DNA from: Lunularia cruciata | Taxonomy: Eukaryota > Streptophyta > Marchantiopsida > Lunulariales > Lunulariaceae | Direction of reading: 5' to 3' | DNA: 64,000 nucleotides | Assembly: GCA_948567375.1 (NCBI GenBank) | Contig: OX419756.1 | Coordinates: 4,593,001-4,657,000 of the forward strand | Shown: piece after piece, positions 26,230 to 64,000 of the stretch | Layout of the letters: each line of letters opens with the position of its first letter | How positions within the stretch are numbered: the stretch's first letter is position 1 | Made by a program: the position numbers and the translations under genes | The notes under the pieces: model-generated | Seen by the model: only the letters and a program-made list of their open reading frames with translations | Told to the model about the DNA's origin: nothing | The model's database searches: none

Positions 26230-26560
26230 GAAGCTTCAAACTCTTGGATGGCCATTTGTGCATTCTATAAATGAGAAAGAGACCCCCAAGTTGCATCATG
26301 AAGAGGATTTCCCTTTCAAGAAGACTTTGTACTATGTATGGTGTTGATGGCCTTGTTGAATGTGGCAATGTGCAAGGATACAATCAACTTCATACACTTC
26401 ATGATCATTGATAGGGATAGGAGGAGGTTGGACACAAGAGGAAAAACAAGATGGATTAGGAACAAAGGGTTTCAGCTTGGATATATGAAAGATAGTGTGG
26501 ATGTACATATGACAAGGCAAGGCAAGTCAATAAGCAATAGGAGAAATGATTTGGGTGACA
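26230..26560 (-). pseudogene. Chromodomain region, family B
   Basis: The ORF 26520-26332 encodes FHISKLKPFVPNPSCFSSCV and YEVDCILAHCHIQQG. WK-GYPLHDATWG-like sequence follows near 26290 in another frame. This is the degenerate pol C-terminus. Confidence 0.75.
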
Positions 26561-27700
26561 TCAAAGGGTCCTATCCAATTAGGAGCAAGTTTAGGGACTT
26601 GGGTATCAAGTGGGAGGGGTAGGTTACTAAAAACTAGCATAACCTTATCGCCAACTTGAAAGGTGAGATCCCAATGATGGTGGTCTGCATATTGTTTTTG
26701 ACAATTTTGAGCAACAAGGAGATGAGATTTGGCTTGTTGAATGAATTGGGATATGGTGGTCAAGAAGGTGGAAGTATGAGGGACATGAGATGGAGGAGGA
26801 GCAAGAAGAGATTTTGGAACAAGTGGATCTTGGCCAAAATTGAGGAAGAAATGAGAGAATTCAGTGCTTGCATGTTTGGAATTATTGTATGCAAACTCCG
26901 TAGTTGCAAGACATTCATCCCAACTAGTATGGTGAATGTTGATGAAGGTACAAAGCATATCCTCCAAGGTGCAATTTTCACATTCAGTTTGTCCATTAAT
27001 TTGAGGATGATAGGCCGTACATAAAGTAATCTTGGTGCCGAGTATCCGGAAGAGTGCTTGCTAAAAATTTCCAATGAATCAACGATAATGTTGAAGATGA
27101 GTACATGAGGCATCCCATGATGCCCCAAGACAATGTCAAAAGAGATTTGTACCAATATTGGAGCATCCACGGTACAAAGGTTGGTACCAAATGGATTTGC
27201 TTACTAAATTGATCCACAAATACCACTATCATTGTGTGACTTTGCTTTGTCTTGGGCAAGGATGTAATGAGATCCCAACTCAAATGTTCCGATTGAGCAG
27301 ATGGAATAGGGAGTGGTTGAAGGTGTCCACTCAATTTCTGGTTGTTGGCCTTGTTACATTGGCAGTTCTCACATGATTGAACAAACTCTCAAACATCTTG
27401 TGCCATGTTTGGCCACCACTATTGGTGTTGGAGGGTACTCAAGGTCTTTTCCACACCCATGTGACCAATGATTGATAAGTGATGGGCTTCTTGGAGGAGT
27501 AAAGTCAAAGATCACCCTTGGCTAGAACATATATCCGGTCTTCATGGAATAAAAGGCCTTCCTTGAAGGAGAAGGTGTTGTACTCCTTGTCACATATTGC
27601 AAGACTACCTTGTACCATCTGAAAGAAGAGATCTTATTGTAGAGTTGTCCTAAACTCAATTTGCATTTTGGAGTCAATTGATACTGCCAAAATTGCTACC
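26527..27700 (-). pseudogene. Integrase, family B (broken)
   Basis: Read downward from 27700: HHCC remnants (GHMGVEKTL near 27460, CENCQCNKAN near 27350), then LSWDLITSLPKTKQSHTMIV and VFVDQFSKQIHLVP (27290-27180) with the first aspartate. The second block is near 27080 and LNVKIAPWRI near 26990. Then comes the C-terminal ORF 26967-26527 (WDECLATTEFAYNNSKHAST, LTFQVGDKVML, LAPNWIGPFDV). Frameshifts occur at 27170 and 26990. Confidence 0.82.
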
Positions 27701-44307: not shown

Positions 44308-45106
44308 ATACCTTATTGATGTGGAAAAGACGACCGCGTAGAACAAATGAAGTATGGGAAGACCCCATCAAGCCCGTACAAGGGAGAGATGAAAAAAAGT
44401 AAAATGGGGCTAAGCCCCAATAGAGTCTATACGAGAATTATACCCCATAGCACCTAAGATATCCGCACTATGCAAGTTGTGTGGTGTTGTCTACAAACAA
44501 TGGGAAGAGTATCCTAAGAAGCATCGCCTAGTGTGATTGCTCTCTTATGGATTACACGCACTAACCATTGCACTATGTATAACAATGGACACACGTTGTC
44601 TAAAATATGATACAAAATATGAGGGTGAGAATGGTGCCCTTGGTGCTTAACATGATAAGCTCTCACACACTCCCTAAAACATATGTCAACCATCGTGTCC
44701 ATTACTCTATATAACTTCAAGGCTAGAGGAACAAAGAGATGACCACACTGCATGCCCCTATACTTGGAGACCTTACGATATGTTGCTACATTCGCCGCCA
44801 ATCCAAGGGGATGGGTAATCACTCCTTCCAACATTGTATCTCGCGTAGTGTTAGTAACCATGATATACACTATTGTCATCTGATCATCTTGGACCAAGTA
44901 TAAATCTGCACTGACAACAATCATTTACAATACATATGAGTGTTCCCTCCACTCCAAATATCCACTCTAGCGTGCCATGCCCAACACTATGTCTCTAATA
45001 ATATGATGTAGTTATCCTCCATAAGATAAAGACCCCGCGTCATATTGATCGCCATTGCATCTAATATGACCGCCATTGCATCTAGTATAGAACCATACCT
45101 TATTGA
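44308..45106 (-). mobile_element. 5'-truncated R2-type non-LTR copy with 12-bp target duplication
   Basis: ATACCTTATTGA lies at 44308-44319 and 45095-45106. The insert 44320-45094 is the last ~780 bp of the element seen whole at 59440-63141. It holds the endonuclease part of the ORF (44924-44514: DLYLVQDDQMT, RKVSKYRGMQCGHLFVPLAL) and the 3' UTR with the same TGGGGCTAAGCCCCA palindrome (about 44408). Its 3' end (CGCGGTCGTCTTTTCCACA) has no poly(A) tail. A short internal duplication lies at 45040-45090. Confidence 0.92.
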
Positions 45107-51649: not shown

Positions 51650-52440
51650 GGAGATGCAATCCTTGAGGGATAACAAGACTTGGGAACTATTAGGTTACCT
51701 AAGGATCAACAAGTGATAATAGATTGCAAGTGGATCCACAAGTTGAAGGAGGGTCCTAAGGAGGGATCTAAGATCTACAAGGCTAGGTTGGTAGCCAAGG
51801 GGTTCACTCAAGAGAAGGGAGTGGACTACAACGAGGTTTTTTCTCCTATTGCACTCCAAAATATGTCTATTATGTATGCTTGTTGCTTTATTTGGTCTTA
51901 CCTTAGATCAAATGGATGTTGTCATGGCATTTCTCTATGGCACCTTGGATGAGAGGATCTTCATGAGAAAACCCATGGGGTTTGTGAAGAAAGACTAAGA
52001 GGACAAGGTATGCAGATTGCTGAAGTCCTTTTATGGACTGAAGCAAGCACCTTGCTAATGGAACAAGAGGTTTGATGAGTTTATGCATGCTCATGGTTTC
52101 AATAGGAGTTTGTTTGATCCTTGTGTGTACATGAAACCGGTGAGTAATAAGACCTTTGGTTATATTTTTCTTCTGTTATATGTGGATGACATGTCGATGG
52201 GTGCCAAGGATAGATTTGAGGTGAACAAGCTCAAGGCGCTCTTGAGTTTGGAGTTCAGGATGAAGGATCTAGGGTTGGCCACAAAGATATTACGCATGGA
52301 GATCAAGAGGAACTTGGGTACTGGTCAGTTGTGGTTGATGCAAGGTAAGTATGCTAGAAAGGTACTTTCTAGGTTCAACATAGAGAGTTGTAATCCAATA
52401 AGTACTCCTCATTTCAAGCTCTTAGCGGCATGTTGTTCTA
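51650..52440 (+). pseudogene. Copia reverse transcriptase
   Basis: 51680-51952 encodes CKWIHKLKEGPKEGSKIYKA, RLVAKGFTQEKGVDYNEVFS. After a frameshift, a stop and the FLYG region (about 51930-52060, broken) the frame from 52083 is open and includes FDPCVYMKP and FLLLYVDDM with the catalytic YVDD intact, then LEFRMKDLGLATKILRMEI. The finger and palm parts are disrupted upstream, so it is inactive overall. Confidence 0.9.
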
Positions 52441-53078
52441 TAGATGCCATGGAGAAGGGTTTGATGGTTAACATTTGTTATGAGAACAAGGAGTCTCATG
52501 TACTTGATGCTTGCACTAGACCTGATCTTGTGCTAGCTATGGGTAAGTTAAGTAGGTATATGCCAAATCCAAGAAGGACACATTGGGAAGCAGTTAAGTG
52601 GATTCTCAAGTATTTGGGATGTACATTAGATTATGGGCTCTTATTTGATAGAAGATCAATGAATGCCGCATCACTAGATGGCTATGTAGGTGCAGACTAT
52701 GGACAAGATTTGGACAAGTGGAGGTCAACAATAGGGTATATACTCACACTTGGTGGTGGATGCATTAGTTGGAGATCTACCTTGCAAAATTGTGTTGCAC
52801 AATCTACTACAAAAGTAGAGTATGTGGCAGCAAAGGAGGGGATTTGGTTGGATAGACTTGTTGCTGAGATGAGGCTATTGCATGGTAATGTAATGCTTCA
52901 TTGTGATAGTCAAAGTGCTTTACACCTACCTGAAAATGAGGTGATGGATAGTAGGGTTAAGCACATAGACATCAAATACCACTTTCTTAGGCAAACTTTG
53001 TTTGAGAAAATGTTTGAGCTAGTCAAGATTGATGGTAAGCTCAACCCGGCTGATGCCTTAACCAAACTCATACCTTAA
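52441..53078 (+). pseudogene. Copia RNase H (open)
   Basis: C-terminal part of the 331-codon open frame 52083-53078: TRPDLVLAMGKLSRYMPNPR, HWEAVKWILKYL, ADYGQDLDKWRSTIGYIL, CISWRSTLQNCVAQSTTKVE, HCDSQSALHLPENEV, VKHIDIKYHFLR, then NPADALTKLIP and TAA. Acidic residues of the RNase H core are retained. The open frame over almost 1 kb is exceptional in this window. Confidence 0.9.
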
Positions 53079-59428: not shown

Positions 59429-59786
59429 GAAATCACCATTTTAATTTCGGTTCCATTGGCACCTAGATTGAAGACTATGGAGAATGGAGTAGAAAGTTAT
59501 GAAGTTTTTTAGTTTTTTTAGGGTTGAGAGTGATCATTATACATTGAGAGTGATGGGTTGTGAATTTTCATTTCTAATCTATGGGTTTTCATGATTAAGT
59601 TCCATGAGAATTTAATTTGAAAATTTTGGAGACGGAAATTGAAAGTTATGGGAGTTTATAGATTTTAGGGTTGTGAGAGAGATTGTTTTCTTACGTGAGT
59701 TGGGATGTGAGGGGTTGTGGTTTTGCAGATATGGGGAGATATGGAGAGGAGTATCATGTATTACTATCACTATTCTTGTGCTAGCC

Positions 59787-62700
59787 ATGGCTACACCTTC
59801 CCATTGGGGGTCGCCTAGAGCGGGTCGGGATACACCATGCCCGGTGTGTCACCGACGCTTTACCTCGCAAGGGGTAAAGACCCATGTGGGAAGGATGCAC
59901 AAGGACTATGATTGGACCACTTGGGATGCCCACGTGAGACGAGCAACCACATCGACAGTAGTGACGCTCGGGATTACGCACGCTTCTTCTATACCTTCGT
60001 TGATCGTTCCAAGGATACCGATCGAGTCGTGGGAGTGGTTAGCTTCTCAGGCGGGTTGCATTTTGGGGTTATTTGAGACTAGTTTTCCATGTCCACGTCT
60101 ATTCCATAGGCTACCCCGCACACTCCATGATGAGGCTAGATAGGCTTTTCGCCTACCATTGGATCGTTTGGCACGTGATCCCTCGGACGAGTTAGCGTGG
60201 TTCCTATTCCTCCTTCTCCCTCGATGGTGTCTTCGTTATGCTAGAGGGGGACGTGCGGGGCATAAAGAGGTGGCGGCTAGATTTCGTCGATTCCGAGCAA
60301 GGGATTGGGCAGCCCTTCAGGAGGAGTCTGTTAGGGCTACACGATTTAGGAGACAGACATCGCCACAGGATACCACAGATTCCACTCGATTACGACGATG
60401 TAGGACATTGGGTCAGGCGGGAGAGTTTAGTAGAGCAGCACGAGCGCTACACCCTCTGTCTATAGCGAGTCCTACTGATGAGACCATCTCTTCCCTACGC
60501 TCATTGCATCCTATAGCAATAGAGGGACTACCACTAGAGGTCTTAGATTATCAGCCTGAGCAGCCTTTATGTCTTGATAGGTCGCTATTTGCACAAGCAT
60601 TGTGCACTGCCATAGCAATAGAGGGACTACCACTAGAGGTCTTAGATTATCAGCCTGAGCAGCCTTTATGTCTTGATAGGTCGCTATTTGCACAAGCATT
60701 GTGCACTGCCCCTCGCCTTTCCTAAGGAGGCTTGTCAAGGATGGTTTATGAGCACCTTAGAGATTGCTTCCAGGCAGATGATCCTTCTAGTGGTTTTACC
60801 GAGTTGTTTCAGGTGGCTGCAGCAGTAGCGAGAGGAGATATTCCTATGTCTGTTAGTCGGGTCTTAGGTGCTAGTCGACTTCTCGCGATCGAGAAGGACA
60901 CGGGAGGCATTAGACCGATTGCTATTGGAGAGATCTTTTTGCGTTTGGTCAGTCGTACCATTGTCCTTCAACATCATTCTCACTTTCGACAGCACCTTAG
61001 TCCACATCAGTTTGGAGTAGCTACACCTGGAGGATGTGAGGCTATATCTCTAGGCATTAGAGCACTCCTAGATATCCATCCGGAGTGGGTCATCCTACAG
61101 GTGGACGTTGAGAACGCTTTTAATAGCGTCTCACGTGCATCCATCTTTAGAGAGCTTAGGGAGGCTGGTGGATCCTTGGCGAGTCTCATTCCTTTTGTTC
61201 GGTCTTTTTATGGCTCTCCTGCTTCCCTTTACTACCAGCATGGTGGTTCACAGGAGGGAGTCACCGTCTTGGAGTCAGCTGTTGGTACACGTCAGGGAGA
61301 TCCTTTGGGGGGGCCCTTATTTGCCATGGCTCACTTTAGAGCTCTCCTGTCTACTACTTTGGCCATGCCAGGTTGTGTATTTCCATCCTTGGCAGATGAT
61401 ACACACATCGTAGGCCCTGTAGATCAGATTAGGCAGGCCTTTGACTACTTGACTACCGAGCTACATCTAGTAGGCTTGAGAGTCAAGGTGTCAAAGTGTA
61501 GGGCATGGTCCCCTTTAGGTATCCCTCCCCACCTTGAGCTTCCAGAGGGGTGTATCACATCCACAGAGGGACTTCGTGTTCTTGGAGTGCTAGTAGGATC
61601 GGAGGATTTTGTCACACGCTTCTTGGACGTTGCCCTTGCAGAGGATGTTCTCCATGTGGATGACCTTCCATTACTAGGAGATCCGCAGGTGGGATTTGGT
61701 ATACTCTCTTCCAGTATTGCTCGTCGACCATCCTACCTCATCCGTACAGTTCTTCCCTCATCGTCCTTCCTATCACGTCTGAGAGCATTTGATAGGAGGA
61801 TTATGGGAGTCTTTGGTGATATTATTGGACCAGGGACTTTTGAGTGTGTGACAGAGGATTTGGCATGTAGACAGACGGCTCTACCGATCTCATGTGGTGG
61901 GGTTGGCTTGCTTTCTATGGAAGAGATGGCACCTATAGCGTTCTTGGGTAGTTGGGCTCTCTCGGCACCCCTACTTGCCTCTCGTTTTGTGGTTGCTGAT
62001 AGGCCGGTTTTGGAGACTTATGTGACAGAGGTGGAGGGAGGATCCTTTTCTCTCCTGGTGTTATTGCGGCAGACGAGAGATAGTCTATCTCCACGAGCAC
62101 GAGAGGGTTTTCCACCGCTTGCTTCACTATCGTCAGATTGGACTAGAGGTCTACAGTCTTCCTTGATGGAGCGACAGTGTGAGCATACGCTACATTCTCT
62201 CTTAGTTGACTCGTCCATTCCTCAGGCTACTAGAGCACGTCTACGCTCTTGCTCCGGCAAGGGTGCAGGCTCGTGGATCCTAGCTCGACCATGCATTAGG
62301 GCTTTCCGACTCGCACCGGCTACTTTCTCTACAGCGATGAGGTTTTGCCTAGGTTTGGTCCACCCATCTGCATCTTCACTACTCACTTGTGAGTGTGGTT
62401 CTACACTAGATGCAGCGGCGGTCCACATGACACGGTGTCCTTTTGGAGGACAGAGGATAGCTACCCATGATGCCATTAGAGACATAGTGTTTGCTATGGC
62501 ACGAGAGAGTGGATACTTGGCTTGGAGGGAGCGTTTGTATGTGTTGCATACGACACGTGTCAGGGCAGACTTATACTTGGTCCGAGATGATCAGGTGACA
62601 GTAGCGGATGTCGTGGTGACGGACCCTACGCGAGATACAGTTTCGGAGGGAGTGATTACCCATCCACCTGGATGGGCGGCGAGTGCAGCAGCAGGTCGCA

Positions 62701-63053
62701 AGGTCTCCAAGTATAGGGGCATGCAGCGAGGTCACCTCTTTGTTCCTCTAGCCTTGGAGTTATATGGAGCGATGGACACGGCATTTGACACATTTGTCAG
62801 GGATTGCACGAGAGCTTATCATGTTAGGCGGCAGGGGGTACCACTCTCACTCTCATACTTTGTAGCTTACTTTAGACAGCGTGTATCCATTTCTCTACAG
62901 AGGGCAGTGGCTGGTGCAATCCATAGGAGAGCAATCACATTAGGTGATGTTTCTTTGGATGCTCCAGTTGTGTGTAGACCGTACGACTTGCATAGCTCGG
63001 ATATCTTAGGTGCGGTAGGGCAGATTTCTCATACAGACTCTATTGGGGCTTAG
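59787..63053 (+). pseudogene. R2-type ORF: zinc finger, reverse transcriptase, endonuclease
   Basis: One frame of 1088 codons with two internal stops, TAG 60141-60143 and TAA 60723-60725, both explicable as C-to-T changes of CAG/CAA. The start ATG at 59787 is in good context (GCCATGGCT). Residues 18-38 form a C2H2 finger (CPVCHRRF ... HVGRMH). The region after the first stop has LLPRWCLRYARGGRAGHKEV, a motif common before LINE RTs. RT blocks: GGIRPIAIGEIFLRLVSR, VDVENAFNSVS (D at 61104), TRQGDPLGGPLF, LADDTHIVG (DD at about 61395). C-terminus: TCECG ... VHMTRC (CCHC-like, about 62385), then RADLYLV ... VADVVVTDP, fitting the RxD...D core of the restriction-like nuclease. It would nick target DNA and prime cDNA synthesis there. 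Confidence 0.92.
60513..60710 (+). repeat. Perfect 99-bp in-frame tandem duplication
   Basis: Units 60513-60611 and 60612-60710 are identical by eye (ATAGCAATAGAGGGACTACC ... TGCACTGCC). Being 33 codons long they keep the frame. The repeated protein piece contains IEGLPLEVLDYQPEQPLCLD. It lies between the finger and the RT, so it should not hit catalytic blocks. Confidence 0.95.
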
Positions 63054-63141
63054 CCCCATGTTACCTTTTTTGTCTCTCCCTTGTAAGGCTTGATGGGGTC
63101 TTCCCATCCTTCATTTTTCCTACGCGGTCGCCTTTTTTGTT
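63044..63141 (+). other. 3' UTR with two hairpins
   Basis: Hairpin 1, TGGGGC-TTA-GCCCCA (63045-63059), has the TAG stop of the ORF across its loop and 3' arm. Hairpin 2, GATGGG-GTCTT-CCCATC (about 63091-63107), follows. Both are kept in the truncated copy at 44320-45094 (one end-base change in hairpin 2). These are candidates for recognition by the element's own RT during target-primed synthesis. Confidence 0.75.
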
Positions 63142-63152
63142 GAAATCACCAT

Positions 63153-63385
63153 ACAGTACAAAGCCGGTTCCTGAACTAGTTCTAGTCTCGGCCGAATAAG
63201 AGCATCGAGTATCAGACTCAGAACTTTGGCATCAGTAGCACTATATCGCAAAGAGATTCCGGTACAAGGACAAGTTAACGGGCCAGCGTAGGTCGCCCTA
63301 GTGTGTGGGGTACGAGGTAGAAATATTAGGATATTGAGTTGTGACCCCTTTCGATTCGAGGAAGCTAATTTCCGGTTTTAGATAT
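63153..63385. other. Spacer between two non-LTR copies
   Basis: No coding signal. It begins with the flank after the target duplication (ACAGTACAAAGCC). Confidence 0.6.
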
Positions 63386-64000
63386 CCATACACAAGCTCT
63401 CTTCGCTCTTGTTGCGGCAAAGGTGCAAGCTTTTGGATCTTAGTACGATGGTGCATTAGGGCATTCCGATTTGCATTAGTTATTTGCTCTATCGCGATTA
63501 GATTTAGTCTACTCATTAGTATTTTTATTATTCATGTCTGAGTGTGATTTTCCACTAGATACACCAACGAATCCCCGTGATGTTGTATCTTATTGGAGGA
63601 CAAAAGATAATTACCGGTGATTCTATTAGAGATATAATGTTTGATATGGCACAAGAGAGTGTGTCCTTGATTTGGAATGAATGTTTGTATACTTTGCAAA
63701 AGACACATGTTAAAGTAGATTTATACTTGGTCCGAAATGATCAAGTGACAATAGTTGATGTTGTGAATATGGACCCTACGCGAGATATAATTATGGAGGG
63801 AGTGATTACCTATCCTCCGGATGGGCAGCAAGTGTAATAACAAATTGTAAAGTCTCCAAATATAAGGGTATACAATAAAGTCATTTCTTTATTCCTCTTG
63901 CCTTGGAGTTATATGGAACAATGCACACAACATATGACAACATTTGTCAAAGAAGGCACACTAGCTTTTCAGAGTTATATGGAACAATGGACACAACATA
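63386..64000 (+). mobile_element. Third R2-type non-LTR copy, 5'-truncated, running off the window
   Basis: Matches the ORF from about 62235 onward: RSCCGKGASFWILVRWCIRA (63380-63470), DSIRDIMFDMAQES, VKVDLYLVRNDQVTIVDVVN, DPTRDIIMEGVITY (63577-63837). AT-shifted with stops, clearly older than the full copy 250 bp upstream. The right end lies outside the window. Confidence 0.88.

Follow-up and report, generated by a model that had tools for sequence, protein, structure and literature searches.

A damaged insertion from a recently amplified non-LTR retrotransposon family with a restriction-like endonuclease, probably in a non-seed land plant

The window analysed here, a stretch of 64,000 nucleotides located at C2:4593001-4657000 of a genome of 565.8 Mb in 74 contigs, contains at positions 59429-63152 a non-LTR retrotransposon encoding a C2H2-like finger, a reverse transcriptase (RT), a CCHC knuckle and a restriction-like endonuclease (RLE). 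We consider it highly probable (roughly 0.9) that this insertion is a damaged representative of an autonomous non-LTR retrotransposon family of the RLE group that has recently amplified in a non-seed land plant.

The insertion is bounded by an 11-bp target-site duplication (TSD), GAAATCACCAT, whose left (59429..59439) and right (63142..63152) copies, neither assigned to a strand, are the only two occurrences of this sequence within the window (at 59429 and 63142), so that the element body extends from 59440 to 63141. TSDs are characteristic of the family. All features of the element lie on the plus strand. A 5' UTR (59440..59786), which comparison of copies showed to be 5'-truncated, lacking about 132 nt that most of those examined possess, precedes an ORF frame (59787..63053) of 1088 codons plus the terminal stop, the in-frame stops at codons 119 and 313 being counted among the 1088. 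Near the N-terminus, a C2H2-like zinc finger of the sequence CPVC...HVGRMH (59838..59900) exhibits a CxxC...HxxxxH pattern that is plain by eye, its match to Pfam zf-C2H2_4 (E 0.0086, 17.2 bits) being under the cut-off. The finger is followed by a 99-bp tandem pair (60513..60710, with units at 60513-60611 and 60612-60710), and by the RT (60888..61589), which carries the motifs VDVENAF, QGDPLG and LADD together with the invariant residues, and which was identified as Pfam RVT_1 (E 1.2e-14; 55 bits, the cut-off being 29.6) in the 775-aa open piece encoded by 60726-63050. A CCHC knuckle of the form CxC...H...C (62388..62438), recognized by residue conservation in alignment A2 (see below), leads to the restriction-like endonuclease core (62466..62714), comprising H581, E602, R613-x-D615, D628, K659 and K662-Y663 (numbering of the 775-aa piece). 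The 88-nt 3' UTR (63054..63141) ends in GGTCGCC and a T-rich tail, with no poly(A).

The sequence-only reading had described this element as nearly intact and with defined ends. The single frame of 1088 codons is interrupted by only two stops, but 33 of these codons are accounted for by the 99-bp tandem duplication, which is private to the window copy (it is found in none of 40 other copies), and the family ORF comprises 1055 codons; the two stops, the duplication and the roughly 132 nt absent at the 5' end show that this copy is damaged. Likewise, the 11-bp TSD delimits the insertion, but its 5' end is not the family's own, since 31 of the 41 copies examined reach about 118-142 nt further upstream. 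The window also holds, on the minus strand, an older fragment from the 3' part of this family (44325..45063, 79% identity) and, on the plus strand, an older 3' copy (63400..64000, about 74-80% identity in pieces) that extends beyond the window edge. Beside the 3' TSD, a short open stretch on the minus strand (63160-63250) looks coding-like by eye. Remains of Copia-like and Ty3-like polyproteins were likewise recognized by eye at 52059-53078, 1410-2129 and 26530-27060.

The nature of the C-terminal domain was assessed in alignment A2, which consists of 52 rows, one of them lacking the knuckle and endonuclease part. Residues C555, H567, C571, H581, D628 and K659 are identical in 51 rows, C557 is present in 50 and E602 in 49, and in 51 rows position 613 is occupied by R or K; D615 is less constant, being D in only 40 of the 52 rows, which counts against the endonuclease reading. 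The best solved relative of the 775-aa piece by sequence is an R2 protein (E 3e-9), and a profile built from 19 homologues matched R2Tg with 129.8 bits over a region spanning the RT, the knuckle and the endonuclease. Furthermore, a profile restricted to the endonuclease (the C-terminal part of A2) matched R2Tg with 43.9 bits and the R2 structure 9nl2 with 33.3 bits, while none of 1120 decoys, made up of 1000 shuffled versions of the two R2 pieces and 120 PPR proteins, scored above 7.9 bits. When the 1055-aa protein was scanned with Pfam at E 0.05, only RVT_1 and a sub-threshold DUF2225 were returned, with neither an apurinic endonuclease (APE) nor an RNase H domain. As judged from sequence comparison, the C-terminal domain is a predicted PD-(D/E)xK-like restriction-like endonuclease homologous to that of R2, in agreement with the initial assignment to the RLE type. 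At group level, the type of RT, the combination of CCHC knuckle and predicted endonuclease, and the lack of an APE domain all assign the element to the RLE-encoding non-LTR retrotransposons.

A protein search of the genome revealed at least 58 places with 96-100% identity to the element (58 scored of 25662 loose candidates), and a search with 351 bp of DNA revealed at least 40 places with 98-100% identity (40 scored of 3765 candidates). Comparison of the two lists by hand indicated that 28 of the latter 40 were new with respect to the 58, giving a lower bound of at least 86 copies, which are spread over 8 large contigs of 60-85 Mb. Forty loci were fetched and, together with the window copy, constitute the 41 copies examined here. 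Pairwise divergence among copies exhibits a median of 0.9%, a maximum of 3.5% and a minimum of 0.03%, the last between L020 and L029, whose flanks and TSDs nevertheless differ. The suspicion that the element had recently been active is thus supported by a recent amplification of at least 86 near-identical copies. The open 1055-codon ORF is kept in 24 of the 41 copies, a sample in which intact copies are over-represented, since loci were chosen on the basis of an RT match. For these 24 copies pN/pS, calculated from 276 pairs that are not independent of one another, was 0.52, indicating only moderate constraint on the ORF. It is probable that copies are still mobile today. One locus, L009 (C2:4801440-4807264), shares both TSD and flanks with the window copy, from which it is about 150 kb away and 1.1% divergent, and therefore represents a segmental duplication that occurred after insertion. 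In addition, older copies with 74-88% identity occur in the window and in the flanks of the fetched loci, so residence of the family in this genome is not only recent.

The 5' tips of full-length copies vary by sub-lineage, in how many GGAGCTGCG units they carry and in short private extensions, as if the tips of the family had been replaced over time. Some private extensions are shared, for example among L014/L015/L023/L024, L020/L029, L022/L025 and L033/L037/L044. A search for an HDV-like ribozyme at the 5' end found none in positions 600-4500 of L012 at E 5. The 3' end consists of GGTCGCC, from which a few copies deviate at one or two bases, and a T-rich tail of variable length.

To characterize the insertion sites, TSDs were scored at 40 loci, L009 being omitted as a segmental duplicate. 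A score of at least 9 was obtained at 24 of the 40 loci and in 2 of 240 mispaired control flanks, a clear TSD being missing at the other 16. Comparison of the insertion sites of collected copies, which the sequence-only reading had proposed, yielded a weak common signal. Taking the first TSD base as 0, the 24 sites exhibit a pyrimidine at -4 in 21 cases and at -2 in 23, a purine at -1 in 18, and A/T at +2 in 22 and at +3 in 21, which can be written as YNYR|NNWW; the TSD edges are those of the best-scoring repeat and may shift by a base or two. When 2000 random sets of 24 were scored at 25 positions for Y, R or S, no set gave 23 at any position; this control covers the Y/R/S positions, the A/T positions having none of their own. 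We regard YNYR|NNWW as a loose and weakly supported shared target signal. Targeting of rRNA, tRNA or snRNA genes was considered and rejected, as no Rfam family reached its gathering score in the 40 loci (233 kb) or in the window; these results, and the dispersion of the copies, support the earlier proposal that the element does not target rDNA.

The attribution to a land plant was supported by the content of the genome. We found 43 matches to DHC_N2 (dynein heavy chain) in about nine gene-like clusters, and at least 150 matches to PPR_2 (150 scored of 740 candidates). Seed plants without swimming sperm are not known to possess dynein heavy chain genes. One PPR protein of this genome has no close named match: among the 120 best of 389 hits the highest identity is 35%, to Marchantia polymorpha, followed by M. 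paleacea and Typha with 34%, while the top bit scores belong to angiosperms, led by Eucalyptus, so that this gene does not indicate the host. Taken together, the dynein heavy chains, the PPR genes and the Ty3/copia-like remains point to a non-seed land plant as the probable host. The genome also contains at least 21 matches to the APE-type endonuclease PF14529 (150 scored of 391 candidates), of which 19 are confined to narrow zones, one on each of seven chromosomes (in Mb: C1 46.2-46.9, C2 33.2-34.7, C6 24.8-25.6, C7 46.6-46.9, C8 39.3-39.4, C10 20.0-20.4 and C11 25.3-26.4) and 2 on the small contig C13; among the same 150 scored of 391 candidates none lies on C12. These zones are possibly centromeric, by analogy with the Zepp-like LINEs of green algae, which are centromeric. 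A search for zf-RVT as a plant L1 marker, carried out with no positive control, gave 0 matches.

The relatives of the element were sought by two protein searches. The first found 112 proteins among 7999 candidates scored, the nearest being environmental proteins. The second, which started from the aligned members of the near clade (E 1e-20), found 109 proteins among 8000 scored, and added five proteins from Riccia fluitans (R1flu_006894 and four others, 44-51% identity) and a single one from Diphasiastrum complanatum (O6H91_01G131400, 44%). In a bootstrapped RT tree of 35 chosen rows, including four of the five Riccia proteins, the element, Diphasiastrum and Riccia form a clade with support of 99/98, and this clade together with P0001-P0005 and P0011 is supported at 100/99. 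Two quicker trees, with 83 and 62 selected rows, recovered the wider clade with 100 and 97 (SH-aLRT only), and the 62-row tree also recovered the plant clade (97, SH-aLRT only). The outgroup of all RT trees consisted of two R2 rows, with no L1, RTE, NeSL, HERO, R4 or CRE rows, and in the bootstrapped tree a long branch separates these two R2 rows from the group of the element. The search for plant relatives envisaged at the outset thereby placed a liverwort and a clubmoss in the same RT clade as the element, although the Riccia and Diphasiastrum records are 278-375 aa long and contain the RT only, the endonuclease part not being in them. Related RTs from Apium graveolens (LOC141686301) and Tanacetum coccineum fall in a clade separate from that of the element. 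The Tanacetum protein (P0240) is 80% identical to that of Apium (P0107) over 370 columns, and it exhibits by eye several repeated RLE-like motifs.

An explanation that has to be weighed against an RLE-group element is that an APE-type plant LINE (L1 or RTE) was misread as R2-like. The LINEs usually described from land plants are L1 or RTE elements with an apurinic-type endonuclease, APE-type endonuclease matches do exist in this genome, and the 19-homologue profile also matches L1 ORF2p. However, that match amounts to 64.3 bits and covers the RT only, whereas the match to R2 runs through the endonuclease with about twice the bits, and the endonuclease profile alone stands well apart from the decoys. 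Moreover, the ORF of the element contains no APE domain according to Pfam, and the clustering of the APE matches in one zone per chromosome is not followed by the family, since only 2 of 58 places lie within 1 Mb of these zones. A misread APE-type LINE is consequently very improbable. That the copies stem from an associated organism contaminating the assembly is likewise very improbable, because the copies are on the same 8 large contigs (60-85 Mb) that bear PPR genes and because the window itself carries plant-type Ty3 and copia remains (by eye).

The origin of the family within its host is less settled. Arrival by horizontal transfer from an associated alga, fungus or animal, instead of descent within a long-resident plant lineage, would be consistent with the environmental proteins that are the nearest outgroups, with the young burst at 0.9% median divergence, and with the pairing of Diphasiastrum and Riccia to the exclusion of the element inside the plant clade (96/80). 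The presence of Riccia and Diphasiastrum proteins in the element's own clade (99/98) and of older copies with 74-88% identity in the same genome argue against it, and we consider such an arrival unlikely, though distinctly less so than the two explanations above. The Riccia and clubmoss relatives suggest instead that elements of this kind form their own land-plant lineage. More tentatively, and at somewhat less than even odds, land plants may have possessed an RLE-LINE clade of their own since before the split of bryophytes and vascular plants, one that in non-seed plants has remained active and multi-copy and in which a loose YNYR|NNWW nick site replaces a fixed genic target.

For the RLE-group element favoured here, a mode of insertion can be proposed. 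The N-terminal finger and the CCHC knuckle of the single protein of roughly 1055 aa would bind both the element's RNA and the target DNA, and the PD-(D/E)xK-like endonuclease would nick the first strand at the loosely specified YNYR|NNWW. This nick would then prime reverse transcription of the U-rich 3' end of the RNA, the T-rich end of the element probably marking where reverse transcription starts. Cleavage of the second strand 9-16 bp away would generate the short target duplications. By analogy, nicking and priming probably proceed as in R2, that is, by target-primed reverse transcription.

Restriction-like endonuclease elements are best known from animals and protists. Among the papers listed in our literature search none reported RLE or R2-like LINEs in land plants, an absence that is weak evidence. 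The finding of an RLE family that recently amplified in a non-seed plant and has liverwort and clubmoss relatives would widen the range of hosts known for an ancient group, and would make the loss or retention of RLE elements in plants testable. Its loose target, unlike that of the strictly site-specific R2, is also relevant to the question of how RLE elements come to be less selective about their targets.

Compared with known systems, the element differs from L1 and RTE in having no APE endonuclease according to Pfam and in its profile scores, which favour R2 over L1, and from Dualen, which carries both an APE and an RLE, in lacking the APE domain. According to the parts consulted of a published account of RLE elements (PMC4640811), the NeSL clade, including Utopia, encodes an RLE, Utopia is hosted by Amoebozoa, SAR and Opisthokonta, and the HERO clade comprises RLE elements of which many are non-specific. 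In contrast to NeSL and Utopia, the 1055-aa protein contains no RNase H and, unlike Utopia, which inserts in U2 snRNA genes, the 40 element loci give no U2 snRNA match. The closest resemblance is to R2 (R2Tg 9dou, R2 9nl2/9nl3, 8gh6/8ibw), with which the element is alignable from RT to endonuclease and shares the domain order (RT, then knuckle, then restriction-like endonuclease). For R2, too, zinc finger(s) at the N-terminus are described (PMC12203849). The N-terminus of R2 combines zinc finger(s) with a Myb domain; in the element, one C2H2-like finger was recognized, below the Pfam cut-off. Unlike R2, the element does not reside at 28S rDNA but forms a dispersed multi-copy family, with no rRNA in the 40 fetched loci. 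The R2 architecture originally attributed to it holds for the domain order: the element is built like R2 in appearance, but it is not an R2.
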